From Moorella sp. Hama-1 (GTDB taxonomy: Bacteria > Bacillota > DSM-521 > Neomoorellales > Neomoorellaceae), in NCBI RefSeq assembly GCF_023734095.1, contig NZ_AP024620.1:616501-680500 (forward strand): DNA of 64,000 nucleotides, read 5' to 3'. A program made the position numbers and the translations under genes. A model generated the notes under the pieces. That model saw only the letters and a program-made list of their open reading frames with translations, was not told the DNA's origin and did not search any database. Shown here in pieces: positions 14,625-36,763 of this stretch. The stretch's first letter is position 1. Each line of letters starts with the position of its first letter.

Positions 14625-14640
14625 TGGCACGATTTTTGCT
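14625..14640 (+). promoter_or_regulatory. Sigma-54 (-24/-12) promoter for cooC-cooS-hyf
   Basis: TGGCAC at 14625-14630, a 5-bp gap, then TTGCT at 14636-14640. The consensus is TGGCAC-N5-TTGCW, so the match is essentially perfect. The predicted start is near 14652, giving a leader of about 180 nt before cooC. The gene directly upstream encodes a sigma-54 activator, which fits. Confidence 0.85.
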
Positions 14641-14831
14641 ATAAAACATGTAGGTGGATCTTTTGCTATTTCATCGTTAAACCCTTAATTTTATAACCCC
14701 AATTTTATACCTTTTACCTATTTACCTAAGGCCAGTTCCAGAGTGAAGTACAGACCTTTGATAGGGAGAATGTCTGCATTAGCCTTATTTAGCAAGGGGC
14801 ATAAGAAAAGTTGAAGAAAGGGGGTATTCGA

Positions 14832-18382: not shown

Positions 18383-18888
18383 ACCGGAAGGAGATCTTCG
18401 TTCGTTATGAACGGTGTACGGGTTGCCATTCCTGTGAGCTGGCTTGCGCCGTGAGCCATACAGCGGCCCGAAATCTGTTTGGAGCTCTCCTGGAGGGCGA
18501 AAGACCGCAGAAGCGCCTCTACGTGGACCAGGTAGGCCAGGTGAAAGCCCCGGCCGTCTGCCGGCAATGCGAAGAGGCCCCTTGCGTGGCCGTCTGCATC
18601 ACGGGCGCGATGCACAGGCGGGAGGACGGCCTCAACCTGGTTGCTTTGCACCGGTGCATCGGTTGCTGGATGTGCGCCCTGGCCTGCCCCTTCGGTGCGG
18701 TGGGCCGGGGCGCGGGCAAGGCCGTAAAGTGCGACCGGGAATGCCTGGATGAGGAGGGCGTACCGGCCTGCGTGCGGGCTTGCCCCACCGGTGCCCTGGT
18801 CTTCCAGACCGTGGAGGAGTTTGAGGCCGAACGGCGCCTGGAGACAGCGAAAACGAGCCTGGAAAAACAACTCCTTGGAGGAGTTTGA
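18379..18888 (+). CDS. cooF: CooF-like 4Fe-4S ferredoxin
   Basis: 169 aa electron carrier expected to link CooS to the membrane hydrogenase. Four Cys-rich motifs are seen: CTGCHSCELAC (residue 12 on), CRQCEEAPCVAVC, CIGCWMCALACPFGAV, and C...CLDEEGVPACVRACPTGAL, i.e. the polyferredoxin pattern of CooF/HycB proteins. ATGA overlaps the cooS stop, so the two are translationally coupled. High G/C third positions match cooS. The coding end (GGAGGAGTTTGAGGCCG at about 18813) is repeated at about 18877, right over the stop codon, so the C-terminus was probably reshaped by a short duplication. Confidence 0.93.
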   Translation: MNRKEIFVRYERCTGCHSCELACAVSHTAARNLFGALLEGERPQKRLYVDQVGQVKAPAVCRQCEEAPCVAVCITGAMHRREDGLNLVALHRCIGCWMCALACPFGAVGRGAGKAVKCDRECLDEEGVPACVRACPTGALVFQTVEEFEAERRLETAKTSLEKQLLGGV

Positions 18889-21086: not shown

Positions 21087-21098
21087 GAGGAGAGAAAG

Positions 21099-22040
21099 AT
21101 GCCCGGTAACGAGTTGCTCCCCGTCGGCCTGGTGCAGGCCTTGCTCGTCCTGCTGGCAGCACCTCTTTTTACGGGCTTTTCCCGCACTTTAAGGGCGAAG
21201 CTGCACTCCAGGAAAGGTCCCGGTATTTTTCAGAACTACCGGGATATCTTTAAACTCATCCAAAGGCAAGAGGTGGTGCCTGCCCAGGCCGGCTGGGTCT
21301 TCCGGTTTACCCCCTATATAGTGATGGCAACCACCCTGCTCATTGCCATGGTGCTTCCGGTTTTAACCCTGCAGTCGCCCCTGGGGATGGCCGGGGATGT
21401 CATCGCTGTCGTTTACCTGTTCACCGCGGTCCGCTTCTTCTTTGCCCTTGCAGGTCTGGATTCCGGCAGCGGGTTCGCCGGGATAGGAGCCAGCCGGGAG
21501 ATGGCCCTGGCCGTGCTCGTCGAGCCAACTATTATCCTGGTGCTGTTCGTGGTCGCCCTTCTCGCCGGGACGACCGATCTGGGAACAATCAGCCAGAAGG
21601 TGGCGGCCGGTGAGATATCATATTTTACCCCGGCAGTCTGGCTGGCCATGGCTTCCTTTGCTGTCGCCACCTTCATCGAAACTGGCAAGCTGCCCTTTGA
21701 CCTGGCGGAAGCAGAACAGGAGATTCAGGAGGGGCCCCTTACGGAATATTCCGGCCGCTCCCTGGCCCTCCTGAAATGGGGTTTGTATATGAAGCAGGTT
21801 GTGGTGATCGCCCTGTTTCTGGCCGTTTTCTTCCCCTTTGGGAGCGCGGCGGTGGTCAGTACTTCCTCCCTCCTGGTATCCACGGCTGTCTTTTTATTGA
21901 AGGTTGCCGGTTTTTACGTGATCGCTGCCCTGCTGGAAAACGGCATGGCCAGATTCCTCCTTTTTAAGGCCCCCGCAGTAACCTGGGTGGCTTTCGGCAT
22001 AGCCATGTTGTCCTTCGTTTTCTACCTGGCCAATGTTTAA
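21099..22040 (+). CDS. hyfC: Hydrogenase-4 membrane subunit HyfC (NuoH-like)
   Basis: 313 aa, about eight membrane helices, homologous to NuoH/HycD, the subunit that joins the membrane arm to the catalytic module. Seen: KLHSRKGPGIFQNYRDIFKL at residues 30-50, AGLDSGSGFAGIGASREMAL, and IETGKLPFDLAEAEQEIQEG, the hallmark acidic loop of the family. GGAGGAG ends 9 nt before the ATG. It is 12 bp after hyfB. Confidence 0.95.
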   Translation: MPGNELLPVGLVQALLVLLAAPLFTGFSRTLRAKLHSRKGPGIFQNYRDIFKLIQRQEVVPAQAGWVFRFTPYIVMATTLLIAMVLPVLTLQSPLGMAGDVIAVVYLFTAVRFFFALAGLDSGSGFAGIGASREMALAVLVEPTIILVLFVVALLAGTTDLGTISQKVAAGEISYFTPAVWLAMASFAVATFIETGKLPFDLAEAEQEIQEGPLTEYSGRSLALLKWGLYMKQVVVIALFLAVFFPFGSAAVVSTSSLLVSTAVFLLKVAGFYVIAALLENGMARFLLFKAPAVTWVAFGIAMLSFVFYLANV

Positions 22041-22063
22041 TAGATGCGGGAGGGGATCTGATA

Positions 22064-22714
22064 GTGTCCGGCACTAGCGTAGTCAACGCCCTGGCTGTGC
22101 TGCTCATCCTGACCTCGATGCTGGTGGTGGAAACCAGAAAGCTCCGGAGGGCGGCGTACATGTACAGTATCCAGTCCCTGGTCCTGGTGGCGATTTTTCT
22201 GTCCCTGGCCGTATTTATGCAGGCAGAACCGCTGTACATCTGGTCCATTACTGCCCTCATCACCAAGACCTTCCTAGTGCCCTATCTCATCATCAGGACC
22301 CTCAAAACGGTAGGGAACCAGGAAGAGGAGGGGCTGGCGCTGGAGACAAGCTCGTCTATTTTTCTTGCGGTGGGCCTGGTGGCTTTATCCTTCGTGGTAG
22401 TCGAGCCTTTTCATATGCATGCGGTACTAAAGTTGAAGGTTGCGCTGGCGGTTTCTATAGCTCATTTTCTCCTCGGGTTGCTCTGTATACTTGCTAGAAG
22501 AAATGCCCTCAAGCAGATATTGGGCTATTGCCTGATGGAAAACGGCTCGCATTTGACCCTGGCCATCATGGCTTACAACGCCCCCGAAACGGTAGAAATC
22601 GGCATCCTGACCGATGCGGTTTTTGCGGTCCTGATCATGACGATCATAGCCAGGCGCCTCTTCAAGGTCTTCGGCACCCTGGATACGGATAAGCTCACAC
22701 TACTAAAGGGTTAG
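22064..22714 (+). CDS. hyfE: Hydrogenase-4 membrane subunit HyfE (NuoK-like)
   Basis: 216 aa, the same length as E. coli HyfE. Six to seven predicted membrane helices; the C-terminal half resembles NuoK/MrpC. Seen: GLLCILARRNALKQILGYCLMENG, a motif with the Glu conserved in NuoK-like proteins. It starts at GTG 22064 with GGGAGGGG upstream. It directly abuts hyfF. Confidence 0.92.
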   Translation: MSGTSVVNALAVLLILTSMLVVETRKLRRAAYMYSIQSLVLVAIFLSLAVFMQAEPLYIWSITALITKTFLVPYLIIRTLKTVGNQEEEGLALETSSSIFLAVGLVALSFVVVEPFHMHAVLKLKVALAVSIAHFLLGLLCILARRNALKQILGYCLMENGSHLTLAIMAYNAPETVEIGILTDAVFAVLIMTIIARRLFKVFGTLDTDKLTLLKG

Positions 22715-24202
22715 GTGATAGAAGTGGGGGAGAATATTTTATTCTACTTGCCCGCGGTGCCGCTGGGAACGGCCCTGCTGGCTTTCGGGATAAGGTCCCG
22801 GCGCATGGTGGAGGTTGTCCACTTGGCCGGGATTAGTAGCGTGGCCCTTCTCTCCTTGCTGCTGGTGCAAGATGTCCTTAGGGGACAAACGCTGCTGGCC
22901 CTGGACGGGATGCTCTACGCCGACGGCCTCACGGCGCTCCTAGTTCTTATTATCGGGGTGGTAGGGTTTTTGGACGGTTTTTACTCTATAGGATATTTGC
23001 GACATGACCTGGCGCAAGGCGAAGTAGATGCGAGGGGCGTCTGCGCTTATTACGGTTTTTACCATCTACTTTTGTTGACGATGGTTCTTGCTGCTATATC
23101 TAACAATATTGCTATTATGTGGGCTGCGGTGGAGGCAACCACCCTGGGCTCAGCCTTCCTGGTCGGGTTCTATAAACACAAGACTGCGGCGGAAGCTGCC
23201 TGGAAGTACGTCCTGATTTGCAGCGTCGGCCTGGCCTTTGCCCTGTACGGGACCATCCTGACCTACTCCAATGCCTTTGCTGTGGTGCAGGACGCCCACA
23301 GGGCGATGCTATGGACTGAGTTAGTAGGGATAGCCCGGGGACTCGACCCGCAGGTAATGAAACTGGCCTTTGTCTTCATCTTGATCGGTTACGGCGCCAA
23401 GGTCGGCCTGGTTCCTATGCACACCTGGTTGCCCGACACCTACAGCGAGGCCCCGAGCCCGGTTAGCGCCCTGCTGTCGGGTGTACTGATGAAGTGCGTG
23501 TTATTTGGGATATTAAGATATTATGCCATTGCCTTGCAGGCCGTCGGTAAGGAATTCCCCCAGACCCTGCTCCTCATCTTCGGCCTTCTCTCAGTGGGTG
23601 TCGCGGCTTTCTTCATCCTGGTGCAGAACGACATCAAAAGGAAGCTGGCTTACAGTAGTGTTGAGCATGTAGGCATCATCGCCACCGGCCTGGGCGCAGG
23701 AGGGCCGCTGGGAATACTTGCCGCGCTCTTTCACGTCATCAACCATAGCCTCACTAAATCCCTTTTGTTCTGCACGGTGGGTAATGTGGCTCGCAAGTAT
23801 GGTACCAGGGACGCCCAGAAGATCCGGGGTATGCTAAAGGTGGCCCCCTTTACGGGCTTTATGTTCATGGCCGGCCTGCTGGCTGTGGTCGGTGCACCGC
23901 CTTTCAGCATTTTCGTAAGCGAGTTTATGACCCTGGCGGCCGGCCTGCAGGCCGGGTATTTCTGGCCGATGATCCTCTTTCTTGTCCTTCTGGTGGTCGT
24001 TTTTGTTGCATTTATTATCCTTATAAGCGACACGGTTCTCGGTTTTCCTCCGGAGGACCTCCCCCGGGGTGACGCCGGCTGGCTGTGCTTGTTGCCCCTC
24101 GGGGTCCTGTTCGTGCTCATGGCCGGGCTGGGGATATATGTACCGGCCCCGCTAAATCAATTACTGCAGGGCGCAGTCAGCGTTGTCCTGGGAGGTAAAT
24201 GA
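22715..24202 (+). CDS. hyfF: Hydrogenase-4 antiporter-like subunit HyfF
   Basis: 495 aa NuoL/M/N-type proton- or sodium-translocating membrane protein. Seen: AAVEATTLGSAFLVGFYKHK, then GYGAKVGLVPMHTWLPDTYSEAPSPVSAL (residues about 225-255), KRKLAYSSVEHVGI and FHVINHSLTKSLLF, i.e. the Glu, Lys and His residues of the half-channels. It starts at GTG 22715 immediately after the hyfE stop. A 55-bp gap separates it from the next antiporter-like gene. Confidence 0.94.
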   Translation: MIEVGENILFYLPAVPLGTALLAFGIRSRRMVEVVHLAGISSVALLSLLLVQDVLRGQTLLALDGMLYADGLTALLVLIIGVVGFLDGFYSIGYLRHDLAQGEVDARGVCAYYGFYHLLLLTMVLAAISNNIAIMWAAVEATTLGSAFLVGFYKHKTAAEAAWKYVLICSVGLAFALYGTILTYSNAFAVVQDAHRAMLWTELVGIARGLDPQVMKLAFVFILIGYGAKVGLVPMHTWLPDTYSEAPSPVSALLSGVLMKCVLFGILRYYAIALQAVGKEFPQTLLLIFGLLSVGVAAFFILVQNDIKRKLAYSSVEHVGIIATGLGAGGPLGILAALFHVINHSLTKSLLFCTVGNVARKYGTRDAQKIRGMLKVAPFTGFMFMAGLLAVVGAPPFSIFVSEFMTLAAGLQAGYFWPMILFLVLLVVVFVAFIILISDTVLGFPPEDLPRGDAGWLCLLPLGVLFVLMAGLGIYVPAPLNQLLQGAVSVVLGGK

Positions 24203-24257
24203 AATTGTTAGCAAAAGGTCGATCCCATTAATGAGGGATACTGGAGGTGCGCTTTAG

Positions 24258-25697
24258 ATGATTTGGTATGCGCTGGGAAGCATCTTGCTGCCGGTATTAG
24301 GAAGCCCCCTGGTCCTATTTTTACCGGAGCGACACGTGAAAAAGGCAAGCCAGTTTTTCTCCCTCCTGGCTTTTATCAGCGGTTTGCTTTTACTGATCGC
24401 TTTTGCGGTCAACCGCGCGAGCTTCACCCGGGAACTGGTGACTATAAACGGTATTAACTGCTACGGCGTCACTATAGATACCCTCAGCGTCCTGGTCAAC
24501 TTCATGGTAGTTTTCCTCGGCTGGCTGATCTGCACCTACTCGGCCGGGTACATGAGCCCTGACAACAAAGAGCATCCGATTAAAGAGGGGGTTCCCCGGT
24601 TTTATGCTCTCATGCTGCTTTTTATCGGCTCTATGGCGGGCGTGGTCTTCTCTTCCACGCTCCTCGGGCTCCTGTTCTTCTTTGAAATGACTGGTCTCTG
24701 CTCGTGGGGTTTGATCGGATTTTACGGGGATCAAAAATCCCGGAATTCCGCCCTCTGGGCGATTATACTCACTCACACCGCCGCGCTGGGACTCTATGTG
24801 GCTACTGCCTATCTCTATATAAACACCGGCAGCTTCGCGGTGACCGCCCTTAATAAATTAACGGACGCCGGGAAAACCATTGCCTTTATCGGAATCCTGA
24901 TCGCCTGCTGGGGTAAGTCCGCCCAGCTTCCTTTTCATCCCTGGCTCCCCCGGGCGATGGTGGCGCCGACGCCGGTGAGCGCCTATTTGCATGCCGCTTC
25001 GATGGTTAAGGTCGGCGTCTACATCTTTGCCCGGACCGTCCTGGCAACGGGGTCGGTTCCCCAGGTGATCGGCCAGGTCGGGGCCATCATGGCGGTGGTC
25101 ACCATGATCTACGGTTTTATCATGTATTTCCCGCAGGATGATATGAAGCGACTCCTCGCCTACTCGACGATCAGCCAGCTCGCTTACATTTTCCTGGCGA
25201 TCTCCATTTCCATCTACGGCTCCAGGATGGCCTTTAACGGAGCGGTGGCTCACATCTTTAACCACGCTTTTGCTAAGGGGCTCTTCTTCCTGGTTGCAGG
25301 TGCGCTGTCCTATACAACCGGTACCCGCCAGCTCTCGCTGCTCAAGGGAATTCTAAATAAAATCCCGGTGGTGGGTTTGGGTTATATTGCGGCTGCTATG
25401 GCCATTACCGGCGTTCCCCCCTTTAATGGTTTTTTTAGCAAATTCATGATCATAATTAGCGGTTTTGAGATTGGCAGGCACTACCCGCTGATCCTTGCCC
25501 TGATTATCGTTACGGTTATTGAATCCGTTGGCAGTTTCATCTGGTTCCTGAAGTGGATGGGAGCGAACGTCCTGGGGGCACCCTCGGAGGTAGTTGCCAG
25601 GGCGGCTGAACCGCCTCTGGCGATCAAATTTGTTCTCGCCGTGCTCATGATCATGACCCTGATTTCCCAGTACATTGTTTTGTTCCTGTTAAGCTAG
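24258..25697 (+). CDS. hyfD: Hydrogenase-4 antiporter-like subunit HyfD
   Basis: 479 aa, the same length as E. coli HyfD; a third NuoL/M/N-type protein. Seen: FEMTGLCSWGLIGFYGD with the conserved Glu, CWGKSAQLPFHPWLPRAMVAPTPVSAYLHAASMVKVGVY, KRLLAYSTISQLAYI and IFNHAFAKGLFFL. ATG 24258 has GGAGGTG 9 nt upstream. Its place after hyfF, rather than between hyfC and hyfE, differs from E. coli. With three antiporter-like subunits the arm could move several ions per H2 (inference). Confidence 0.92.
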   Translation: MIWYALGSILLPVLGSPLVLFLPERHVKKASQFFSLLAFISGLLLLIAFAVNRASFTRELVTINGINCYGVTIDTLSVLVNFMVVFLGWLICTYSAGYMSPDNKEHPIKEGVPRFYALMLLFIGSMAGVVFSSTLLGLLFFFEMTGLCSWGLIGFYGDQKSRNSALWAIILTHTAALGLYVATAYLYINTGSFAVTALNKLTDAGKTIAFIGILIACWGKSAQLPFHPWLPRAMVAPTPVSAYLHAASMVKVGVYIFARTVLATGSVPQVIGQVGAIMAVVTMIYGFIMYFPQDDMKRLLAYSTISQLAYIFLAISISIYGSRMAFNGAVAHIFNHAFAKGLFFLVAGALSYTTGTRQLSLLKGILNKIPVVGLGYIAAAMAITGVPPFNGFFSKFMIIISGFEIGRHYPLILALIIVTVIESVGSFIWFLKWMGANVLGAPSEVVARAAEPPLAIKFVLAVLMIMTLISQYIVLFLLS

Positions 25698-25720
25698 AGG
25701 GAAAAGGAGGTTGCCAGAGC

Positions 25721-27454
25721 ATGCCAAATGAAATGAAATCCCGACAGGTCGGGAAAAAATACGTGGAGGCCTTGCGGTCTAAGTTCGGGGCGGCGATTCT
25801 TGCCGAGGTCTGGCAAACACCGGACCAGGTAACCCTGACGGTCGAACTCAGCTCCCTCCCGGAAATTGTGGAAGAGACATATTACCGGCAGGGCGGGTGG
25901 CTCTCCAGTGTTGTCGGCAATGATGAGCGCGGCTTGAACGGCCACTTTGCGGTATACTACGTTTTATCCATCGAGAAAGAGGGGGCTCCCGATAAAAACT
26001 TCTGGTTGACGGTGAAGGCCCTGGTTCCTGCCCATAAACCGGAGTTTCCTTCGGTAACTCCGCGGGTGCCGGCCGCCGTATGGTACGAGCGGGAAGTGCG
26101 GGATATGTTCGGCCTGGAGCCGGTGGGCCTCCCGGATACGAGGAGGCTGGTGTTGCCCGATGACTGGCCGGATAACCTGTATCCCCTGCGGAAGGACGCC
26201 ATGGATTACCGCTTCCGCCCCGACCCGGTGGTAGAGGAAGAAAACTACAAGTTTATCGCAGTAGAAGGGGAGGGTATTGTCGAGGTACCCCTGGGGCCGC
26301 TGCACATTACTTCCGACGAGCCCGGGCACTTCCGGCTCTATGTCGACGGCGAGTATATCGTGGACGCCGACTACCGCCTTTTCTACGTGCACCGGGGGAT
26401 GGAGAAACTGGCCGAGAACCGCATGGACTACGACCAGGTCACCTTCCTGGCCGAGCGGATCTGCGGAATCTGTGGTTACGCCCATAGCGTGGCGTATGCG
26501 TCGGCGGTGGAAACGGCCAACGGGATCGAGGTCCCGCCGCGGGCCCAGTACATCCGCACCATCCTGCTGGAGGTGGAGAGGATGCACAGCCACCTCCTGA
26601 ATCTGGGGCTGGCGGCCCACCTGGTGGGTTTCGATGCGGGTTTCATGCACTTCTTCCGGGTCCGGGAGAAGGCCATGCAAATGGCCGAGATTCTTACGGG
26701 GGGCCGTAAAAGCTACGGCATGAACCTGATTGGCGGCGTGCGCCGGGATATTTTAAAAGAAGAAAGGGACCAGGTCTTGCGCTTAATTGCCGAGCTCCGG
26801 TCCGAACTGGATGACCTCCTCGATATGCTGGTAAATACGCCCAATTTTGTCTCGCGAACCCAGGGAGTGGGCCGCCTGGATCCCAAGGTGGCCCGGGACT
26901 TCAGCCCGGTAGGTCCGAATATCCGGGGCTCCGGGTATACCCGCGATACGCGGGCGGACCATCCCTATGGGGCCTATGACCGTGTGTCCTGGAACGTCAT
27001 TTCCAAAAACGGATGCGACGTTCTTTCCAGGCAACTGGTGCGGGCGGCCGAGCTGTATGAGTCCTTTCAAATTATTGAGAGGTGCCTGGACGCAATGCCT
27101 CCCGGCCCGGTTCTGGTGGAGGGGTTTACCTATAAACCGGGCACCTACGCCCTGGGATATGTGGAAGCCCCTCGGGGAGAAGACGTCCACTGGGTCATGA
27201 CCGGAAACAACCAGCAGGTCTACCGGTGGAGGTCGCGGGCCTCGACCTATAATAACTGGCCGTCCCTCCGCTACATGTTTCGCGGTAACACGGTGTCCGA
27301 TGCTCCCCTCATCGTGGCCAGCATCGATCCCTGCTATTCCTGTACGGAAAGGGTTACGGTGGTGGATGTGCGTAAAAAGAAGGCGAGGACGATCGAATAT
27401 AAGGAGCTGGAACGGTATTGCCGGGAAAGGAAATACTCGCCGCTAAAACCTTAG
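25721..27454 (+). CDS. hyfG: Group 4 [NiFe]-hydrogenase large subunit HyfG/HycE
   Basis: 577 aa fusion: residues 1-180 are a NuoC-like (30-kDa) domain (PSVTPRVPAAVWYEREVRDMFGL), the rest a NuoD-like catalytic domain. Nickel-binding motifs are present at both ends: RICGICGYAHS (about residue 247) and DPCYSCTERV (about residue 540). So it can hold a Ni-Fe site, unlike complex I. The sequence after the second motif runs on for about 30 residues (VTVVDVRKKKARTIEY...). The family is C-terminally processed by HycI-type peptidases, and a peptidase gene is downstream. GGAGG lies 8-12 nt before the ATG. Confidence 0.96.
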   Translation: MPNEMKSRQVGKKYVEALRSKFGAAILAEVWQTPDQVTLTVELSSLPEIVEETYYRQGGWLSSVVGNDERGLNGHFAVYYVLSIEKEGAPDKNFWLTVKALVPAHKPEFPSVTPRVPAAVWYEREVRDMFGLEPVGLPDTRRLVLPDDWPDNLYPLRKDAMDYRFRPDPVVEEENYKFIAVEGEGIVEVPLGPLHITSDEPGHFRLYVDGEYIVDADYRLFYVHRGMEKLAENRMDYDQVTFLAERICGICGYAHSVAYASAVETANGIEVPPRAQYIRTILLEVERMHSHLLNLGLAAHLVGFDAGFMHFFRVREKAMQMAEILTGGRKSYGMNLIGGVRRDILKEERDQVLRLIAELRSELDDLLDMLVNTPNFVSRTQGVGRLDPKVARDFSPVGPNIRGSGYTRDTRADHPYGAYDRVSWNVISKNGCDVLSRQLVRAAELYESFQIIERCLDAMPPGPVLVEGFTYKPGTYALGYVEAPRGEDVHWVMTGNNQQVYRWRSRASTYNNWPSLRYMFRGNTVSDAPLIVASIDPCYSCTERVTVVDVRKKKARTIEYKELERYCRERKYSPLKP

Positions 27455-27493
27455 CGCAGCTATAAGCGAGCAAAAGGAAGGGGGATTCCCAGG

Positions 27494-28045
27494 ATGCTAA
27501 AATTGCTAAGAAAAGCGCTACAGGTCGGGGAGGCTACTGTTGCGTATCCCTTTAAACCGGTAGAGGTGGCACCTGGCTTTCGCGGTAAACCGGTTTACGA
27601 CTTTAGCCGGTGTATCGCGTGCGGCGCCTGTGCTACGGCTTGCCCGCCCAATGCCATTACCATGGACTGCGATGTAGAGCGGGGGGTTAAGTCCTGGAAT
27701 ATAAACTACGGCCGCTGTATTTTCTGCGGCCGCTGCGATGAGGTGTGCCCTACGGGCGCCATCGTTCTTTCGGCAGAGTTTGAATTGGCCGCCGCCAGCA
27801 AGGAGGACCTGTACTGCCGGGCTGAGCTCAAGCTTTGTAAGTGCATCTCCTGCGGTGCATACTTTGCACCCTGTCGCGAACTGGAATACGTGCTGGCCAG
27901 CCTCAAGCAGGCAGGATTGCCGGAGAGCGGCCACGAAGGCTGGGAGCAGATTCTGAAGTTATGCCCGAAGTGCCGGCGCCGTAAGGCGGGGAGTGCCGCC
28001 GGAACCTTTGGGCGTGCGGGCAAGGTCCTGGGAGGGAGGCGGTAA
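27494..28045 (+). CDS. hyfH: Hydrogenase electron-transfer subunit HyfH/HycF
   Basis: 183 aa, the E. coli HyfH length. Two 4Fe-4S motifs are seen, CIACGACATACPPNAI and CIFCGRCDEVCPTGAI, as in NuoI. A C-terminal Cys-rich stretch (CKCISCGAYFAPC, then CPKCRRRK) may bind another metal. It should take electrons from the CooF-like protein and pass them to HyfI. The start follows GAAGGGGG. Only 2 bp separate it from hyfI. Confidence 0.95.
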   Translation: MLKLLRKALQVGEATVAYPFKPVEVAPGFRGKPVYDFSRCIACGACATACPPNAITMDCDVERGVKSWNINYGRCIFCGRCDEVCPTGAIVLSAEFELAAASKEDLYCRAELKLCKCISCGAYFAPCRELEYVLASLKQAGLPESGHEGWEQILKLCPKCRRRKAGSAAGTFGRAGKVLGGRR

Positions 28046-28047
28046 GG

Positions 28048-28800
28048 ATGGGTCAGGAAGTAAGACTGGCAGATTTGAAGGCGAAGCTGAAAAACGTCAT
28101 CAAACGCTCCGTCTATGTGTACCGGGTCGACTGTGGTGGCTGCAACGGGTGCGAGATCGAGATTTTCGGTGCCATCACACCGGTTTATGACGCGGAAAGG
28201 TTTGGGATCAAGGTGGTGGCCTCCCCAAGGCATGCCGACCTTCTGCTCTTCACCGGAGCCATGACCAGGGCCATGCGGCTGCCGGCCATACGGGCGTATC
28301 AAGCGGCCCCCGATCCCAAAATCGTGGTAGCCTACGGCGCGTGTGGCTGTAGCGGCGGTATCTTTCACGACTGTTACAGTGTGTGGGGAGGGGCTGACAG
28401 CATTTTCCCGGTAGATGTCTATATTCCCGGCTGTCCTCCAACTCCGGCAGCGACGTTGTACGGCCTGGCTGTGGCCCTGGATTTACTCCAACAAAAGATT
28501 AAAGGAGAGCAGTTTGCAGAAACGGAGGTTACCCGGGTTGTTCCGCAATACGAGGGAGTTGGCCCCGAACTGGCCAAAGAGATTGAGCAGGAGGCCCGCC
28601 GTTTGAGCGGTTATCTGCATGGCCGGCGCCTAGCCGCGCAATATCTCCAGTTCGTCAGGGAAGGAGACCTGCTGGCGGTCGACCGGAAGATTAAAGAGGT
28701 GATCAAGGAGGAGAAAGACCCGCGCCTGGCCGAAGTTTTTCTGAGCTTGCACAAAATTTATCTGGAGAAGATGGAGAGGGTAGGCCGTAATGCCGGGTAA
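28048..28800 (+). CDS. hyfI: Group 4 [NiFe]-hydrogenase small subunit HyfI/HycG
   Basis: 250 aa NuoB-like subunit holding the proximal 4Fe-4S cluster. Seen: VDCGGCNGCEIEIFGAITP (residues about 29-47), AYGACGCSGGIF and VYIPGCPPTPAATLYGLA, which supply the four Cys ligands. Overlaps hycH by 11 bp. Confidence 0.96.
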   Translation: MGQEVRLADLKAKLKNVIKRSVYVYRVDCGGCNGCEIEIFGAITPVYDAERFGIKVVASPRHADLLLFTGAMTRAMRLPAIRAYQAAPDPKIVVAYGACGCSGGIFHDCYSVWGGADSIFPVDVYIPGCPPTPAATLYGLAVALDLLQQKIKGEQFAETEVTRVVPQYEGVGPELAKEIEQEARRLSGYLHGRRLAAQYLQFVREGDLLAVDRKIKEVIKEEKDPRLAEVFLSLHKIYLEKMERVGRNAG

Positions 28801-29230
28801 GGTAAGATTCTACAAGTTATGCAAGAGATTTGTGGACGAAAAAGACGCCCCGCCCCGGGTTAAGCAGCTGGAGTATTATGCCCTGGCCATCGGTCACCAT
28901 ATAGGGGTGGTTGATTGTTTGTCGCCCGTTATGGTTATCGACGAGGGGAACTATTTTCAATGGATTAGTAAACTGCCCCGGGGGAAAGCCAGGAGCAAGC
29001 TGGAGGGCCTGGCCAGGTGGGGAGAGTTGGAGATAAATAAAGAGCATGTTCCACCTTTAGTAGCGGCACTGGCGGGAGCTGCTGCCAGTTTCCTCCCGGA
29101 AGAGAAGCAATGGGCCGGCTGCCTGCTCCAGCATCTCCAATCGATAGGAACAGAACCGGCTATATATCTGGTGGTGAGGCTAAGTGAAGAGGCTAGTGAT
29201 TACGGTAGGCAACGAACTGATGGGCGATGA
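28790..29230 (+). CDS. hycH: Hydrogenase maturation protein HycH
   Basis: 146 aa, resembling HycH/HyfJ, a small protein needed for formate-hydrogenlyase-type hydrogenase assembly; its biochemical role is poorly known. Seen: FYKLCKRFVDEKDAPPRVKQ at the N-terminus and IGHHIGVVDCL, typical of the family. Overlaps hyfI at its start and hycI by 47 bp at its end. A 33-bp piece of this gene (29095-29127) is repeated exactly at 30580-30612. Confidence 0.85.
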   Translation: MPGKVRFYKLCKRFVDEKDAPPRVKQLEYYALAIGHHIGVVDCLSPVMVIDEGNYFQWISKLPRGKARSKLEGLARWGELEINKEHVPPLVAALAGAAASFLPEEKQWAGCLLQHLQSIGTEPAIYLVVRLSEEASDYGRQRTDGR

Positions 29231-29636
29231 TGGAGCCGGGCCGTTGCTGGCCCGTCTCCTGGAAGAAAAACGCCTCCCCGGGTGGGAGGTAATCAACGGC
29301 GGGGCGGCGCCGGAGAATTACCTGCATCGAGTGCGCGATCTCCAACCGGCAGCGGTGGTGGTAGTGGATGCCTGCGATATGAACCTGCAGGCCGGGAGCA
29401 TACGCCTCATATCTGAAAAGGATATTGCCTGTGAGTTTTTTCTGACCACCCACCGGTTACCCCTGTCATTTTTCATCTCGGCTTTGAAAGAACTGGTTGC
29501 GGAAGTTTGTTTTGTCGGTATCCAACCGGCGGTAGTTGCCTTTGGTTTGCCAGTGTCTCCTGAAGTAAGGCGAGCTGTAGAGACTGTGTATCAAAAGCTG
29601 CAAACGGGAAAGCTCGATTTTCCGCACCTCGGGTGA
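29184..29636 (+). CDS. hycI: Hydrogenase maturation peptidase HycI
   Basis: 150 aa aspartic-type endopeptidase that trims the large subunit C-terminus after nickel insertion. Seen: VGNELMGDDGAGPLLA with the Asp that contacts nickel (residues 8-23), VVVDACDMNLQAG and TTHRLPLSFF with the conserved His. GTG 29184 lies inside hycH. The end of the gene and the bases after it (29602-29646) recur at 30632-30676. Confidence 0.93.
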   Translation: MKRLVITVGNELMGDDGAGPLLARLLEEKRLPGWEVINGGAAPENYLHRVRDLQPAAVVVVDACDMNLQAGSIRLISEKDIACEFFLTTHRLPLSFFISALKELVAEVCFVGIQPAVVAFGLPVSPEVRRAVETVYQKLQTGKLDFPHLG

Positions 29637-29659
29637 TTAGGGAGAGTAAGGAGTGCCTG

Positions 29660-29945
29660 CTCGATGTTCCGGTTCGGGAGCAGGAAAACGGGGATCGGAG
29701 GATCGCCGATGTCCTCTCCGGCGGGTTCCCAGACCGCGAGGACGCGGTGTTAGCCGGGTAGACCCTGGGTGAGGTGCTGGAAGGGCTCATGGGGATCGAG
29801 GGCCGGGCGGTCCTCATGCTGGCCTGGGGCTACAGCCAGGCAGAGATCGCGGTGGCTGTAGGGAAGGGTGCCAGGGTGGACAACGCCCTGCGGGGGCCCG
29901 GCAGAAGGCCGCCCGGGCGTGGGCCAAAGGACAGTTTTGGCAAAA
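29660..29945 (+). pseudogene. Remnant of a sigma-region-4-like (phage-type) regulator
   Basis: The conceptual frame reads FPDREDAVLAG, an in-frame TAG (29758-29760), then TLGEVLEGLMGIEGRAVLML and YSQAEIAVAVGKGARVDNAL. After a shift near 29900 it continues ARQKAARAWAKGQFWQN. This looks like a small helix-turn-helix protein of the kind found in phages and in sigma-70 region 4 proteins, now broken by a stop and a frameshift. G/C-rich. It lies between hycI and the H-NOX gene and probably came in with the latter. Confidence 0.5.
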
Positions 29946-29959
29946 CTTCAGGAGGGGGA

Positions 29960-30505
29960 ATGGTGAAGATGAAAGGCATTATCTTTTCCGTGCTCAAGGA
30001 GTACGCCGGGAACCGGCACGGCGACGGGGGAAGGGAAGCCTTCAGGAGGGCGACCGGGCTGACGGCGCCGCTCGCCACTTCCGACTACCCCGACGAGAAA
30101 GTGGCGGCGGCCGTCGGGGCACTGGCCGAGCTTTCCGGTAAGAAGCCTGAGGAGGTGCTGGCCGATTTCGGCCGCTACTTCGTGGCGGAATCACCATTAA
30201 TACAGAAGACCTACGCGGCGTATTTTAAGAATGCCAGGGATGCCAGGGATTTCCTGCTGAAGATGGACTCGGTCCATGTCCAGACCACCAAGGCCCTGCC
30301 GGGCGCCGCACCCCCGCGGTTCGAGTACGAGGACCGGGGCGGCGAGCTGGTGGTCGTCTACCGCAGCGAGAGGAAGCTGTGCCTGCTGCTGAAGGGCCTG
30401 ATCGAGGGCATAGGGCTGTGGTACAACGGCAGGCCGCTGTCCTGGCACGAGGAGGCCTGCATGTTGGGCGGGGCCAAGGCCTGCCGCGTGGCCGTGAGGT
30501 TCTAG
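29960..30505 (+). CDS. Stand-alone H-NOX (HNOB) heme gas-sensor protein
   Basis: 181 aa from ATG 29960; ATG 29969 (MKGIIF, 178 aa) fits the family start better. GGAGGGGG is just upstream of both. H-NOX domains bind heme b and sense NO or CO. Seen: MKGIIFSVLKEYAGNRHG, the proximal heme ligand in KMDSVHVQTTK, PPRFEYED, the propionate-binding Y-x-S-x-R as VYRSERK, and KGLIEGIGLWYNG. Aligned to the Thermoanaerobacter protein, the distal Tyr-140 that permits O2 binding is Leu here (family knowledge), so NO/CO binding without O2 is expected. No fused output domain. Lies between hycI and hypA, in G/C-rich sequence unlike its neighbours. Confidence 0.92.
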   Translation: MVKMKGIIFSVLKEYAGNRHGDGGREAFRRATGLTAPLATSDYPDEKVAAAVGALAELSGKKPEEVLADFGRYFVAESPLIQKTYAAYFKNARDARDFLLKMDSVHVQTTKALPGAAPPRFEYEDRGGELVVVYRSERKLCLLLKGLIEGIGLWYNGRPLSWHEEACMLGGAKACRVAVRF

Positions 30506-30579
30506 GCGTAAGCCTGCGGCGGACCGTAGAGCTCGGGGGGAGAAATCCGGAAGCGTTTTCCGGGTTTCTCCGCTTTCTC

Positions 30580-30676
30580 CCCGGAAGAGAAGCAATGGGC
30601 CGGCTGCCTGCTACAGCTTCTCTAAAGTTGCCAACGGGAAAGCCCAATTTTCCGTACCTCGGGTGATTAAGGAGAG
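30580..30676 (+). repeat. Partial, internally deleted copy of hycH-hycI
   Basis: 30580-30612 repeats 29095-29127 of hycH exactly (33 bp). 30632-30676 repeats 29602-29646 (end of hycI and what follows) with a few changes. In the original, about 475 bp lie between the two pieces; here about 20 bp do. So the H-NOX gene is flanked by a direct repeat of the hycI end, and a deleted duplicate lies between it and hypA. Confidence 0.85.
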
Positions 30677-30683
30677 GGATAGG

Positions 30684-31025
30684 ATGCATGAACTGGCCCT
30701 GACGGCTGAGTTATTAAAGCTATTAGAACGTAATGCCCAGGAGAAAGGTATAAAGCGCATCCGGAAAGTTAAGGTGGTGATAGGGGCAATGACCTCGATT
30801 TTACCGTCTGCCCTGGAGTTTTCTTTTTACGCGCTTAAAGAAGGACCGTTGTTTGACGGGGCCCAATTGGAAATAGAGGAAAGGCCTGGGCGGGGACATT
30901 GCCAAGATTGCCTGGCTGAAGTAGTTCTGGATAACTGGTGTATTATGTGCCCTTCCTGCGGGTCGAGGAGGGTTGCTATCGATCAAGGAAGAGAGCTTTA
31001 TATTGATTTTTATGAAGGCGAATGA
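30684..31025 (+). CDS. hypA: Hydrogenase nickel chaperone HypA
   Basis: 113 aa. Starts MHEL, with the N-terminal Met-His that binds nickel; GGAGAGGG is upstream. The zinc site is seen as CQDC (about residue 74) and CPSC. It delivers nickel to the hydrogenase large subunit with HypB. First of the hyp genes; the 3' end is followed within 20 bp by the PsiE-like gene. Confidence 0.95.
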   Translation: MHELALTAELLKLLERNAQEKGIKRIRKVKVVIGAMTSILPSALEFSFYALKEGPLFDGAQLEIEERPGRGHCQDCLAEVVLDNWCIMCPSCGSRRVAIDQGRELYIDFYEGE

Positions 31026-31044
31026 ACTCTGGGAGGAATTACCC

Positions 31045-31530
31045 TTGAAGGATACCGCCACAGTCATTACTCGATTATTAATGTCGGCAGAGTATATAAT
31101 TCATATTTTAGCGGCGATCCTGCTTGTTATCGCCGCAATAGGGATCTCTTTTCAATCCCTTAGCGAAATCAAGTTTTCCATGGTTAGTATGCTTACCCTT
31201 ATTAGCAACTCGCTCCTCATACTGATTATAAAAGAAGTACTGTGGACAATCATCAGGTTTATAAAAACTCAGGATTTCAGTGTCAGCTCATTTCTCCATC
31301 TCGGCGTGGTATCAAGTATCCGGCAAATGCTTTTCATTGAAGCCCAAAAATCCACGGAGAAGATGGAGCCGTTGATTTATTTTGGTGAATTGGGAGTAAA
31401 TGCTGTCGTAATTTTAATCCTGATGGCTTCTTTCTATTTGTGGCAGAAGGGGTATAGTTTGAAGGTTTTAAAAAAGAACGGAGGGAATATCGATGAAAGT
31501 AATAATGGCTCAAAAGATTCTTCAGGCTAA
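31045..31530 (+). CDS. PsiE-like membrane protein
   Basis: 161 aa from TTG 31045, with GGGAGG 9-14 nt upstream; longer forms starting in hypA are possible. Four hydrophobic segments are seen: YIIHILAAILLVIAAIGISF, MVSMLTLISNSLLILIIKEV, a weaker one near LHLGVVSSIRQMLF and NAVVILILMASFYLW. The pattern TRLLMSAEYIIHIL...VLWTIIRFIKTQ resembles the PsiE family, of unknown function. Overlaps hypB by 38 bp, so it belongs to the operon. A role in hydrogenase assembly or regulation is possible but unproved. More A/T-rich than hypA. Confidence 0.75.
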   Translation: MKDTATVITRLLMSAEYIIHILAAILLVIAAIGISFQSLSEIKFSMVSMLTLISNSLLILIIKEVLWTIIRFIKTQDFSVSSFLHLGVVSSIRQMLFIEAQKSTEKMEPLIYFGELGVNAVVILILMASFYLWQKGYSLKVLKKNGGNIDESNNGSKDSSG

Positions 31531-32140
31531 TCAAGATATAGCCGAGCAAAACCGAAAGCGCCTATCCCAAATACTAACTGTCAATCTGATAGGTTCTCCT
31601 GGTGCGGGTAAAACTGCACTCTTGGAGAGGACAATAGCCTCATTAAAAAGGGAATTTACCGTCGGGGTGATTGAAGGTGATATATATACCACCCTCGATG
31701 CCGAGCGTATTGCCGGTCAAGGGGTAGAAGTTGTCCAGATCAATACTGAAGGAGCTTGTCACCTGGATGCCAGTATGCTCTCCAGTGCGCTAGAAGGGCT
31801 CGACCTTGCCAGCCTGGACCTTATATTTATCGAAAATGTGGGCAACCTGGTATGTCCGGCCGAATTTGACCTGGGTGAGGATTATAAGGTGGCCCTGTTG
31901 AGCGTCACTGAAGGCAGCGATAAGCCGGCCAAGTACCCTTTAGTATTTCGCGAAGCCCGGGCAATAGTAGTTACCAAGGCAGACCTCTTACCGCACACTA
32001 ACTTTGATTTGAAGGCAGTCGAAGAAGAGATTAAGGCCGCCAATCCTGCTGTGAAGATTTTTGTAACCTCAGCCAAAACCGGTGAGGGCCTGGAGGCATG
32101 GTGTTTATGGCTAAAAGATGCGGTGCGGAAGAAAAAATGA
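31493..32140 (+). CDS. hypB: Hydrogenase nickel-insertion GTPase HypB
   Basis: 215 aa SIMIBI-class GTPase acting with HypA. Seen: Walker A GSPGAGKT (residues about 34-41), VIEGDIYTTLDAERI, ENVGNLVCPAEFDLGE with the metal-site Cys, and VTKADLL for guanine recognition. No His-rich N-terminal nickel store. Start ATG 31493 follows GGAGGG. The stop overlaps the hypF start as ATGA. Confidence 0.96.
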   Translation: MKVIMAQKILQANQDIAEQNRKRLSQILTVNLIGSPGAGKTALLERTIASLKREFTVGVIEGDIYTTLDAERIAGQGVEVVQINTEGACHLDASMLSSALEGLDLASLDLIFIENVGNLVCPAEFDLGEDYKVALLSVTEGSDKPAKYPLVFREARAIVVTKADLLPHTNFDLKAVEEEIKAANPAVKIFVTSAKTGEGLEAWCLWLKDAVRKKK

Positions 32141-34410
32141 TTGTCCGCTACCGGATAACTGTTAAAGGGATCGTTCAGGGGGTAGGGTTTCGCCCCTTTG
32201 TTTATAAAGCGGCCCGCCTGCATGGTCTTAAAGGCGTTGTCTCAAATACCACCGGGGGAGTAACCATAGAGGCCGAAGGGCAGCAGGGGGCAGTACGCGC
32301 TTTCCTGGCCTATTTAAAGGAAAATAAGCCTCCTTTGTCGCGGGTAAGTGCTTGCGAATGGGAGGTATTGGAGCCCTGCGGTTATAGTTCCTTTGCTATC
32401 CTGCCGAGTAGAGAAGGGGTGAGGAAAGAAGCGCTGATTCCTCCGGATGTGGCCCTCTGTCCTGATTGTGCCCGGGAAGTATTAGATCCCCAAGATAGGC
32501 ATTATGGTTATCCCTTTACCAACTGTACCAATTGTGGACCGCGATTTACCATTGTACGGGGCGTCCCGTATGACCGGGCGAAGACCTCCATGGCCCGGTT
32601 TCCAATGTGCCCGGAATGTGCCGGGGAATACCACAACCCGGGTAACAGGAGATTCCACGCCCAGCCGGTAGCCTGCCCGGCCTGCGGGCCGCAGGTGGAG
32701 CTGGTGGACAGGCAGGGGCGAAAGGTGGAAGGCAACTGGTTGGAGCTGAGCTGGAGATTCTTGCAAGACGGCAAGATATTAGCCGTAAAAGGGCTGGGAG
32801 GCTTTCACCTGGTATGCGATGCCAGGAATAGGGAAGCATTGAAGACCCTCCGCCGGCGCAAGGGCCGTGAAGCTAAACCCCTGGCGGTAATGTGCCGCCT
32901 GGAGACGGCCAACAAATATTGCTTTGTTGGTCCGGAGGAAGAAAAACTGCTGACCTCTCCTCAAGCCCCCATTGTTATTCTTACCAAACGTCCGAGCTGT
33001 AGTTTACCAGAAGAACTGGGTCCGCGGATGAAAACCCTGGGTATAATGTTACCCTATACACCGCTGCATTTGATGCTTCTAAACGGCCCTCTGGAGATTT
33101 TAGTAATGACCAGCGGCAACTGTAACGGTTTACCCCTGGCAAAAGACAACGGGAGTGCCCTGGAGGAGCTTAAGGACATAGCCGACTATTTTCTCTGGCA
33201 CAATCGCGAGATTATCAACCGCTGCGATGATTCCGTAGCGGCGGTGATTGACGGTGGGGTACAAATCTGGCGCCGCTCACGGGGGTATGTTCCCGCGCCG
33301 CTTATGGTTCCAGTTAGTTCCAAGCCTGTTGTGTTGGGTATGGGTGGGGATATGAAAAATACTTTTTGCCTTTTAAAAGGCAACCTGGCCTTTATCAGCC
33401 AGCACATAGGGGAATTGGGCAGCAGGGAAGGCGAGGAACACTTTTTCTCCAGCCTGGAGAATTTAAAAAACCTCATCGGCTCCGAACCTGAAGTAATTGG
33501 TTATGACCTGCATCCTGGCTACCGTTCCTCCCGTCTAGCGGCAGAAATTCCGGCAAAGGCGCGTTTTGCCGTTCAGCATCACCATGCCCACATGATTTCC
33601 TGCCTGGCCGATAATGGAGTGGAAGAGAAAGTTATCGGGGTAATCCTTGATGGAACTGGTTACGGAACGGACGGGCGTCTCTGGGGGTTTGAGATACTCA
33701 CTGGGGACTACGCTGATTTTACCCGGGAGTATCACCTGGCGTATGTACCGTTACCTGGTGGCGAGCAGGCGGTGCGTTACCCCTGGCGAACAGCAGTAGC
33801 TTATTTAATGAAGTACCTTTCTTCAAAAGGTGAATCAATTGTTGAACGCCTTTTTCAAGGGAGAGGAGAAGAACTGCAAGTGGTCAAACACCTTATCTTA
33901 ACAGAATTTAATTCACCATTAAGTTCGAGTTGCGGTCGTCTTTTTGACGCTGTTTCAGCCCTTCTTGGCCTTTGCTACCATAATAGTTACGAAGGACAAG
34001 CAGCAATCGAATTAGGGGAAATGATCCTGGACCCGGGGGAGGGCAAAAAATTAGCACCCTATCCATTTTCTATTGAGGGGAAAGTTATTCATCCTGGCGG
34101 TGTTATAGCTGGCGTGGTGGCCGACTTGGAGCGGGGAGTGGCCAGGGAGATTATCGCTACCCGCTTCCACAATACGGTCCTGGCGATGGTACGCGAGGCT
34201 GTGCGCGCGGTTGCTAAAAGAACACATATAAAGACTGTAGCTCTTAGCGGTGGCGTCTGGCAAAACAGGTACCTTTTTAGCCTGGCTAAAGAAATCTTGC
34301 CTGGCGAGGGTTATCATCTATTGGTCCACCGGCACGTACCGGCCAATGATGGGGGTCTATCCCTGGGTCAGGCAATGATCGCCTGCCGGAGGTGGCAACA
34401 ATGTGCTTAG
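32137..34410 (+). CDS. hypF: Carbamoyltransferase HypF
   Basis: 757 aa from ATG 32137, overlapping the hypB stop; an in-frame ATG 39 bp upstream is less likely. It makes the carbamoyl-AMP and passes it to HypE for the cyanide ligands. Domains in order: acylphosphatase (VQGVGFRPFVYK, residues 12-23), two zinc-finger motifs (CPDCAREVL, NCTNCGPR, CPECAGEYH, ACPACGP), a YrdC-like domain (KGLGGFHLVCDARN, TSGNCNGLPLA) and a Kae1-like domain with HHHAHM (about residue 482) and GVILDGTGYG. Full length, no damage. Confidence 0.97.
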   Translation: MIVRYRITVKGIVQGVGFRPFVYKAARLHGLKGVVSNTTGGVTIEAEGQQGAVRAFLAYLKENKPPLSRVSACEWEVLEPCGYSSFAILPSREGVRKEALIPPDVALCPDCAREVLDPQDRHYGYPFTNCTNCGPRFTIVRGVPYDRAKTSMARFPMCPECAGEYHNPGNRRFHAQPVACPACGPQVELVDRQGRKVEGNWLELSWRFLQDGKILAVKGLGGFHLVCDARNREALKTLRRRKGREAKPLAVMCRLETANKYCFVGPEEEKLLTSPQAPIVILTKRPSCSLPEELGPRMKTLGIMLPYTPLHLMLLNGPLEILVMTSGNCNGLPLAKDNGSALEELKDIADYFLWHNREIINRCDDSVAAVIDGGVQIWRRSRGYVPAPLMVPVSSKPVVLGMGGDMKNTFCLLKGNLAFISQHIGELGSREGEEHFFSSLENLKNLIGSEPEVIGYDLHPGYRSSRLAAEIPAKARFAVQHHHAHMISCLADNGVEEKVIGVILDGTGYGTDGRLWGFEILTGDYADFTREYHLAYVPLPGGEQAVRYPWRTAVAYLMKYLSSKGESIVERLFQGRGEELQVVKHLILTEFNSPLSSSCGRLFDAVSALLGLCYHNSYEGQAAIELGEMILDPGEGKKLAPYPFSIEGKVIHPGGVIAGVVADLERGVAREIIATRFHNTVLAMVREAVRAVAKRTHIKTVALSGGVWQNRYLFSLAKEILPGEGYHLLVHRHVPANDGGLSLGQAMIACRRWQQCA

Positions 34411-34634
34411 CTATTGTGGGGAAAGTAAGCAGGTTAAATGAGACGCATAATACGGCGATAATTGATATTCACGGTGTCCGCAGGGAGATATCTATAGTTT
34501 TACTGGGGCAGGTGAATGTTGGCGATTATGTTTTGGTGCATGCCGGATTTGCCATAGAAAAGATTGATTTAAAAGAAGCTGAAGAGATGGTGAAACTGTG
34601 GGAGGAACAATTAAATGATGCTAGCCTTGGATAG
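34401..34634 (+). CDS. hypC: Hydrogenase assembly chaperone HypC
   Basis: 77 aa. Starts MCLAIVGKV at ATG 34401, 9-13 nt after GGAGG; the family needs Cys at position 2, which rules out the ATG 9 bp upstream. HypC carries the Fe(CN)2CO unit between HypD and the large subunit. Also seen: GDYVLVHAGFAIEKID. Overlaps hypF and hypD. Confidence 0.96.
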   Translation: MCLAIVGKVSRLNETHNTAIIDIHGVRREISIVLLGQVNVGDYVLVHAGFAIEKIDLKEAEEMVKLWEEQLNDASLG

Positions 34635-35745
34635 ATTCTGTGACGGGGAATTGAGCAGAAAACTCGCCCGTAAGGTCTTTGGGTTGGCAGACCAGGTTGC
34701 TGAACGTCTTGGGCGCCCTGCAGTTTTTATGGAAGTATGCGGAACGCACACAGTATCTATCTCCAGGATGGGATTGCGCAGCCTGTTGGCGGGCCGTCTG
34801 GAACTGAGAAGCGGCCCGGGGTGTCCGGTTTGTGTAACAGATCACCAGGAAATCGATATGATGGTCAATCTGGCCCGCCTGCCCGGGGTTACAGTGGGAA
34901 CCTTTGGGGATCTGGTGCGCGTACCCGGCAGCCAATCCTCCCTGGAGAGGGAACGCGCTGGCGGTGCCGATGTGCGTGTCTTTTACTCGCCGCTGGATGC
35001 GGTAGCCTTTGCTGAGGCTAACCCGCAAAAAGAGATTGTGTTTTTAGGAATTGGTTTCGAAACAACGATCCCTATAGTCGCTTTAAGCCTTGCCCAAGCC
35101 CGGGCCAGGGGGGTTAAAAACTTTAGTATTTTCTCAGCCCATAAACTTGTTCCCCCTGCCGTCCGGGCGCTTCTTAGTGACCCCGAACTAAAACTCGACG
35201 GGCTCATTTTACCAGGGCATGTTAGTGCCGTTACTGGCAGGCGGGCTTTTGATTTTATCGCCCAAGAGTATGGCTTACCGGCGGTAATTAGTGGTTTTGA
35301 GCCCCTGGATATCATGATTGCCCTGCACGAGCTTTTGTCTCAATTGCTGTGTGGTGAGGCACGGGTGGTGAACAAGTATACGCGGGTGGTACGGGAAGAG
35401 GGTAACCCGTATGCCCGAGACCGGATAGCGGCGTGCTTTGCGGTGGTCGATGTTTCCTGGCGGGGCCTGGGGGTTATTCCTCAAAGCGGGCTTCTACTAC
35501 GGGAAACTTTGCGCGATTTCGATGCCCGATTTAAACTAAATATAGAACTCTTTCCACCACGCCATCCGTCAGGTTGTGCTTGTGGAGAAGTTTTGCGCGG
35601 GAAACTTTTACCTCTTGATTGCCGGCTCTTTGGTAACGTATGCACGCCGGTTCATCCTGTAGGCCCTTGTATCGTTTCCAGTGAAGGGGCTTGTGCGGCT
35701 TACTACCGATTTGAACGATCCTTGCTTATTGGGGGTGGCAACTAA
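34615..35745 (+). CDS. hypD: Hydrogenase iron-cofactor scaffold HypD
   Basis: 376 aa Fe-S protein on which the Fe(CN)2CO group is built with HypC. Seen: FMEVCGTHTVSI (residues about 39-50), RSGPGCPVCVTD, FLGIGFETTIP, ILPGHVSAVTG, and the C-terminal 4Fe-4S ligands in HPSGCACGEVL, FGNVCTPVHPVGPCIVSSEGACAAYYR. Overlaps hypC by 20 bp. Confidence 0.96.
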   Translation: MMLALDRFCDGELSRKLARKVFGLADQVAERLGRPAVFMEVCGTHTVSISRMGLRSLLAGRLELRSGPGCPVCVTDHQEIDMMVNLARLPGVTVGTFGDLVRVPGSQSSLERERAGGADVRVFYSPLDAVAFAEANPQKEIVFLGIGFETTIPIVALSLAQARARGVKNFSIFSAHKLVPPAVRALLSDPELKLDGLILPGHVSAVTGRRAFDFIAQEYGLPAVISGFEPLDIMIALHELLSQLLCGEARVVNKYTRVVREEGNPYARDRIAACFAVVDVSWRGLGVIPQSGLLLRETLRDFDARFKLNIELFPPRHPSGCACGEVLRGKLLPLDCRLFGNVCTPVHPVGPCIVSSEGACAAYYRFERSLLIGGGN

Positions 35746-35746
35746 G

Positions 35747-36763
35747 GTGGAAGGGGACGGTAAGGATATTATTTTGCTGGCTCACGGTGACGGTGGTGCC
35801 CTCACCCACGAACTTATAAATACCCTTTTTCTTCGCTATTTCGGAGGCAACATATTAAAAAACCTCAGCGATGCGGCGGCTTTTTCAGTAAGTGAAGGGA
35901 AACTGGCTGTTACTACTGATTCCTTTGTGGTTGATCCCCTTTTTTTCCCGGGGGGTGATGTGGGAAAACTGGCAGTTTGTGGTACAGTCAATGATCTGGC
36001 GGTTAGCGGTGCCCAACCCGGCTATCTTACGGCTTCTTTTATTTTAGAAGAAGGTTTGCCGCTCATTGATTTGGAACGTATTGTGCGCTCTATGGCGGCA
36101 GCCTGTAATATGGCTGGTGTGGAAATTATCGCTGGCGATACGAAGGTAGTTGAAAAGGGGCACCTGGATAAAATTTTTATTAATACTGCCGGGGTAGGTT
36201 TTATCCCTCAAGGAGTAGATTTGGGTTACCACCGGCTTAAACCCGGTGATAAAGTTTTAATCAATGGTAGTCTTGGCCAACACGGTATAGCGGTACTCAG
36301 TAAGCGGTATGGGTTCGATTTTGCAGAACAGGTCATGAGCGACTGTGCCCCGCTGAATGGTATAATTAACTTGCTTTTAAAGGAAGTTCGGGGCATTAAG
36401 ATGATGCGGGATCTTACCCGGGGCGGCCTCGCCACAGCAGCTAAAGAAATTGCCCTGGCCTGCGGGTTAGATATTTGGCTGGATGAAAGTTGTATGCCAA
36501 TAGATGCCAGGGTAAAGGGGGTTGCCGAGATGTTGGGGCTGGATCCCCTTTATCTGGCAAACGAGGGGAAATTTATAAGTATTGTCAGCCTGCAGGAAGC
36601 AGGAAAAGCTGTAGCGGTAATGCAAGAGCATGCCCTGGGAAGGGAGGCTAGTATTATAGGTGAGGTGAAGGCTGGTGAAGGTAACGTTTATCTCTCTACA
36701 TCCCTTGGAGGTGCTAAGTTTTTAGATCTTCTAGCCGGGAGTCCTTTACCACGGATCTGTTGA
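35747..36763 (+). CDS. hypE: Carbamoyl dehydratase HypE
   Basis: 338 aa from GTG 35747, directly after the hypD stop; starts inside hypD are possible but the family begins shortly before LLAHGDGG. PurM-like ATP-dependent enzyme that turns thiocarbamate into thiocyanate on its C-terminal Cys. The protein ends PRIC, so that Cys is present. Also seen: DAAAFSVSEGKLAVTTDSFVV and DLTRGGLATAAKEIA. Last gene of the island. Confidence 0.95.
   Translation: MEGDGKDIILLAHGDGGALTHELINTLFLRYFGGNILKNLSDAAAFSVSEGKLAVTTDSFVVDPLFFPGGDVGKLAVCGTVNDLAVSGAQPGYLTASFILEEGLPLIDLERIVRSMAAACNMAGVEIIAGDTKVVEKGHLDKIFINTAGVGFIPQGVDLGYHRLKPGDKVLINGSLGQHGIAVLSKRYGFDFAEQVMSDCAPLNGIINLLLKEVRGIKMMRDLTRGGLATAAKEIALACGLDIWLDESCMPIDARVKGVAEMLGLDPLYLANEGKFISIVSLQEAGKAVAVMQEHALGREASIIGEVKAGEGNVYLSTSLGGAKFLDLLAGSPLPRIC

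Follow-up and report, generated by a model that had tools for sequence, protein, structure and literature searches.

The window, which is the whole 64,000-nucleotide stretch analyzed here, comes from the genome of Moorella sp. Hama-1 (G000), a single 3.32-Mb contig with one H-NOX gene. It carries, entirely on the + strand, a carbon monoxide dehydrogenase-hydrogenase locus. A regulator with V4R (9.6e-20), PAS, Sigma54_activat (3.7e-72), and Fis-type HTH_8 domains in Pfam (positions 12714 to 14546), which is likely the regulator of the operon, is followed by a perfect match to a -24/-12 sigma54 promoter, TGGCACGATTTTTGC (14625 to 14639). cooC (14811 to 15578), encoding the CODH nickel-insertion ATPase with a CbiA/ParA domain, adjoins cooS (16460 to 18382), encoding a monofunctional Ni-CO dehydrogenase (Prismane/CO dehydrogenase, 3e-176), and cooF (18379 to 18888), encoding a 4Fe-4S electron carrier with Fer4 domains. 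These are followed by a hyf/hyc-type energy-converting hydrogenase (hyfB, C, E, F, a second hyfB-like gene, G, H, and I; 19065 to 28800), assigned by synteny in 10 genomes and by NADHdh and Fer4 domains. The maturation genes are hycH (28790 to 29230; PF07450, 3.9e-46), the protease gene hycI (29184 to 29636; TIGR00142, 1.2e-43), the nickel chaperone gene hypA (30684 to 31025; PF01155, 6e-30), and hypB, hypF, hypD, and hypE (31493 to 36763, by synteny). A gene for a PsiE-like membrane protein (31012 to 31530; PF06146, 1.7e-6), which is not a constant neighbour, follows hypA. A monofunctional cooS and cooF upstream of a hyf-type hydrogenase, together with hyp genes, is the composition that defines CODH-Ech1 (cooS-hyf) loci, and the regulator-cooC-cooS-ech1-hyp order is the same as that described for hydrogenogenic Moorella, although the main text of that description mentions neither H-NOX nor heme (PMC11328732). 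Upstream of the operon, positions 8008 to 9336 hold a reverse transcriptase ORF that, from its sequence only, is group II intron protein-like.

Between hycI and hypA lies a gene encoding an H-NOX protein, a member of the family that includes the nitric oxide sensor of animals. The gene (29969 to 30505, + strand) encodes 178 amino acids, of which residues 5 to 156 match the HNOB domain PF07700 (95.9 bits against a cut-off of 25.5; profile positions 1 to 156 of 163; E value, 3.2e-27). The ORF tool proposed GTG 29774 or ATG 29960 as the start, both of which reach into a decayed reading frame upstream, and since ATG 29969 (MKGIIF) is the only start on which the orthologs agree, it was taken as the start of the gene. 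The interval 29660 to 30676 of a preliminary description of this DNA thus contains H-NOX, placed correctly between hycI and hypA, and its remainder consists of a gene remnant and an insertion scar. An AlphaFold2 model based on an alignment of 22 sequences (pLDDT 85.8), which supersedes a weak model from five sequences (pLDDT 71.8), has a predicted fold matching the crystal structures 4iae (TM 0.84) and 4u9b (TM 0.83), with E values of about 1e-11. The heme ligand His106 and the Y134-x-S136-x-R138 motif are present and invariant in five orthologs, a Pro is found at the position of Tt Pro115, and Leu144, which is Leu in all five orthologs, occupies the position of the O2-stabilizing Tyr140 of Tt H-NOX. 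The His, the YxSxR motif, and the Leu had been read correctly in the preliminary description, as had the lack of a fused output domain; the 178 residues contain no MCP domain. By profile, motif residues, and fold, the protein is confirmed as a stand-alone H-NOX; the Leu at the O2-Tyr position supports a predicted O2-rejecting pocket, and we infer both heme binding and its ligand. Cys141, Cys167, and Cys175 are invariant in all five orthologs and in six full-length distant relatives, and they match Cys139, Cys164, and Cys172 of the zinc/thiol site in Shewanella oneidensis H-NOX (PMC7108781). Zinc binding is uncertain because the fourth ligand position, which is His or Gln elsewhere, is Glu in the Moorella protein.

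In its stand-alone form, lack of the distal Tyr, YxSxR motif, and three C-terminal Cys residues, the protein resembles the kinase-associated H-NOX proteins of S. oneidensis (SO2144/HnoK), Vibrio, and Caulobacter. Unlike those, it has Glu as the fourth zinc ligand, its gene has no adjacent kinase, the N-terminal module of the usual kinase is not matched in the genome, and it is encoded within the CODH-hydrogenase operon of a thermophilic anaerobe. It shares the fold and the heme His with Tt H-NOX, the MCP-fused, O2-type protein of strict anaerobes, but it is unfused and has no distal Tyr. Since the pattern of H-NOX in strict anaerobes is MCP fusion together with a distal Tyr (PMC12329717), the Moorella protein is an exception to it.

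Among 22 genomes of the class, H-NOX is present in five (G000, G002, G016, G017, and G018) belonging to four genera, with 88 to 97% identity; the carriers include Moorella stamsii and three genera besides Moorella. The gene is thus not confined to a single strain, and its recurrence in coo-hyf clusters of other species, for which the preliminary description had suggested looking, extends to three further genera. In all five genomes, it adjoins hycI of a cooS-cooF-hyf locus, which in G018 is split into pieces. hypA lies directly 3' of it in G000, G002, G016, and G017, and one copy in G018 borders hypA at a contig end. Contig C10 of G018 carries the hycH end, hycI, and a second full-length H-NOX gene before tadA, with dnaX nearby; an apparent IS110-type transposase fragment lies immediately 3' of this H-NOX gene. 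Two other Moorella CooS-Hyf loci, those of G001 and G006, lack H-NOX and have hycI directly adjacent to hypA; the gene is also missing from three Hyf loci without an adjacent cooS (G005, G023, and G048). A distinction between CO-type and other Hyf loci was therefore rejected as a full explanation of its presence, since G001 and G006 are of the CO type, and no other locus gene co-occurs exactly with H-NOX. G006 is probably M. caeni, judging by its absent cooC; M. caeni has no cooC and grows on CO while making H2 (PMC11328732). CO-type loci thus carry H-NOX as an optional accessory, which CO-to-H2 growth does not require. Outside Moorellia, a further 63 H-NOX loci were inspected, many spanning no more than about 3.5 kb, and in none does the gene adjoin coo or hyf genes. 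The closest sequences there share 31 to 36% identity and come from Desulfobacterales, Myxococcales, and other groups; the clearest examples among these distant relatives have a histidine kinase encoded directly downstream.

The DNA on both sides of H-NOX suggests how the gene arrived. Upstream lies a reading-frame remnant decayed by frameshifts and stops (29637 to 29968, + strand; alignment and translations), which is full length in G002 and G018, is reduced to about 80 nt in G016 and G017, and was found nowhere but at this site in 26 genomes. Downstream, an insertion scar (30574 to 30676, + strand) joins a fossil of the hycH 3' end (30574 to 30625) to a hycI 3' end (30621 to 30676), as seen from direct repeats D1 (88%) and D2 (90%), and carries the upstream region of hypA. 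This second hycI 3' end stands between H-NOX and hypA in all five H-NOX genomes, whereas G001, G005, and G006, in which hycI and hypA adjoin, do not have it; the hycH-end scrap is clear in G000 and G002 and weak in G018. Because the duplicated hycI 3' end precedes hypA in every carrier, H-NOX appears to have been gained once, and the simplest reading is a single insertion with partial duplication of hycH-hycI, after which the duplicate decayed. The five occurrences would therefore not be independent associations. G000 and G002 are 97 to 99% identical over H-NOX-hypA-psiE; in G000, cooS (16460 to 18382) and hypF-hypE (32100 to 36763) resemble those of other genera more than those of Moorella relatives, but the hyf core is Moorella-like, and the dS between G000 and G018 is far lower for H-NOX (0.11) than for hyfG (0.45). 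These differences between blocks indicate a mosaic locus made up of recombined segments.

The remnant, inherited together with H-NOX, serves as a neutral yardstick and diverges about three times faster than the gene, with mismatches of 15.7% versus 5.0% between G000 and G018 and 5.6% versus 2.0% between G000 and G002. In the same pairs, indels occur in the remnant only. The dN/dS of H-NOX ranges from 0.12 to 0.32 across ten pairs of five sequences, an estimate limited in power by that number and by dS values of 0.05 to 0.32. The low dN/dS and the slower divergence than that of the adjoining remnant indicate, at the sequence level, that natural selection keeps H-NOX in the locus through purifying selection.

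The control of the operon likely lies in the V4R-PAS activator and the sigma54 promoter. The activator is found in all seven cooS-hyf loci, including the two without H-NOX; TGGCACGCTTTTTGC is at the matching place in the six other loci, and TGGCACG[AC]TTTTTGC occurs upstream of cooC/cooS in all seven. H-NOX would thus be at most a modulator, as activator and promoter are conserved with or without it. No sigma70-like promoter was seen on the + strand just before H-NOX, and its gap to hycI is only about 80 nt in G016 and G017, which together make co-transcription with the hydrogenase genes likely. The activator of this locus is named norR in the Moorella literature (PMC11328732); NorR has a GAF-type NO sensor domain, whereas this activator has V4R and PAS domains. 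The regulator called norR may be an undescribed CO-responsive activator.

The immediate neighbours of H-NOX are hycI and hypA, with no histidine kinase or cyclic di-GMP enzyme adjoining it. The N-terminal module of the usual kinase had no match in the five H-NOX genomes, in a search run without a positive control genome. The PsiE-like protein, which the preliminary description had offered as a partner, was rejected because its gene is absent in G016 and broken in G017, both of which carry H-NOX. That gene lies between hypA and hypB in G000, G002, and G018 and is also missing from G001 and G006; a psiE relative lies 3' of hycI in G023. The best partner candidate is the V4R activator, a possible partner since the phenol sensor domain of PoxR, itself a sigma54 activator, is the next predicted fold match after H-NOX and soluble guanylate cyclase (sGC), and the operon's activator has a V4R domain.

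The explanation that we favor, to which we give an even chance as a whole, is a protein switch responsive to NO or CO or to redox state. An H-NOX gene of the histidine kinase-pairing subfamily would have been inserted once between hycI and hypA in a CooS-CooF-Hyf operon of Moorellia, bringing a scrap of adjoining DNA with it, and would then have spread with the locus through inheritance and recombination. It would probably be transcribed with the hydrogenase genes from the sigma54 promoter under the V4R-PAS activator. Without a fused output or the usual kinase, the protein would most likely act as a stand-alone switch, whose contact with a partner changes when NO (or CO) binds or when the three-Cys site is oxidized. 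The altered contact may tune the expression of the operon, or the activity or maturation of the CO-oxidizing hydrogenase, under gas or redox stress. A more specific form, in which this Tyr-less, kinase-free H-NOX provides the gas or redox input through the fold-related V4R-sigma54 activator, a CO/NO control over CO respiration that differs from CooA and RcoM, is put forward tentatively and with low expectation.

Redox or oxidant sensing, in which the signal would arise when the C-terminal Cys (zinc) site is oxidized, a mode known from Caulobacter and Vibrio H-NOX, would protect the O2-sensitive CODH and hydrogenase, and we consider it somewhat unlikely. The three invariant Cys residues favor it, thiol-site oxidation can be an active signal in H-NOX relatives, and the Caulobacter protein is activated by oxidation rather than by NO (PMC12329717); the Glu at the fourth ligand position and the conservation of the heme residues as well speak against it. 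A dedicated CO sensor, whose Fe(II) form would bind CO and induce cooS-hyf by signaling to the V4R-sigma54 activator, would do the work that CooA does elsewhere. The restriction of H-NOX to CO-type loci and the predicted O2-excluding pocket agree with such a sensor, and no CooA candidate emerged among 14 CRP family proteins encoded in the genomes with the seven cooS-hyf loci, none of which has the heme motif of CooA as judged by eye. The analogy with CooA would be heme-based gas control of a cooS-hydrogenase locus, although H-NOX is an unrelated protein and has no DNA-binding domain. In general, NO activates H-NOX and sGC far more than CO does. The two cooS-hyf loci that lack H-NOX but share the activator and promoter also weigh against a CO sensor, one being probably that of the CO grower M. 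caeni (PMC11328732), so that the local CO sensor of the preliminary description is not supported in an essential form, and we regard a dedicated one as rather unlikely.

A passenger role, with H-NOX as a mobile cassette that reached the operon but brings no benefit there, would fit the scar and remnant, the mosaic recombination, and the absence from two CooS-Hyf loci; it is distinctly unlikely given the dN/dS values and a gene intact in all five genomes while the adjoining remnant decays. A CO/NO buffer or scavenger shielding the enzymes, also raised in the preliminary description from the position in a CO operon, is highly improbable because micromolar protein cannot buffer dissolved CO that would reach about millimolar levels during growth on CO, and H-NOX is no catalytic NO scavenger.

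As the preliminary description had stated, no link of H-NOX with the CODH-hydrogenase complex was found in the literature searched. The locus is therefore confirmed as a new, recurrent, and selected setting of a known family, in which a predicted O2-rejecting, stand-alone H-NOX is locked into the gene cluster of a life on CO, against the description of the family in strict anaerobes. If H-NOX senses CO, NO, or redox state here, it would represent a new kind of control on the biological conversion of CO to H2, and the locus would then offer a natural system for testing how H-NOX acts without a kinase.
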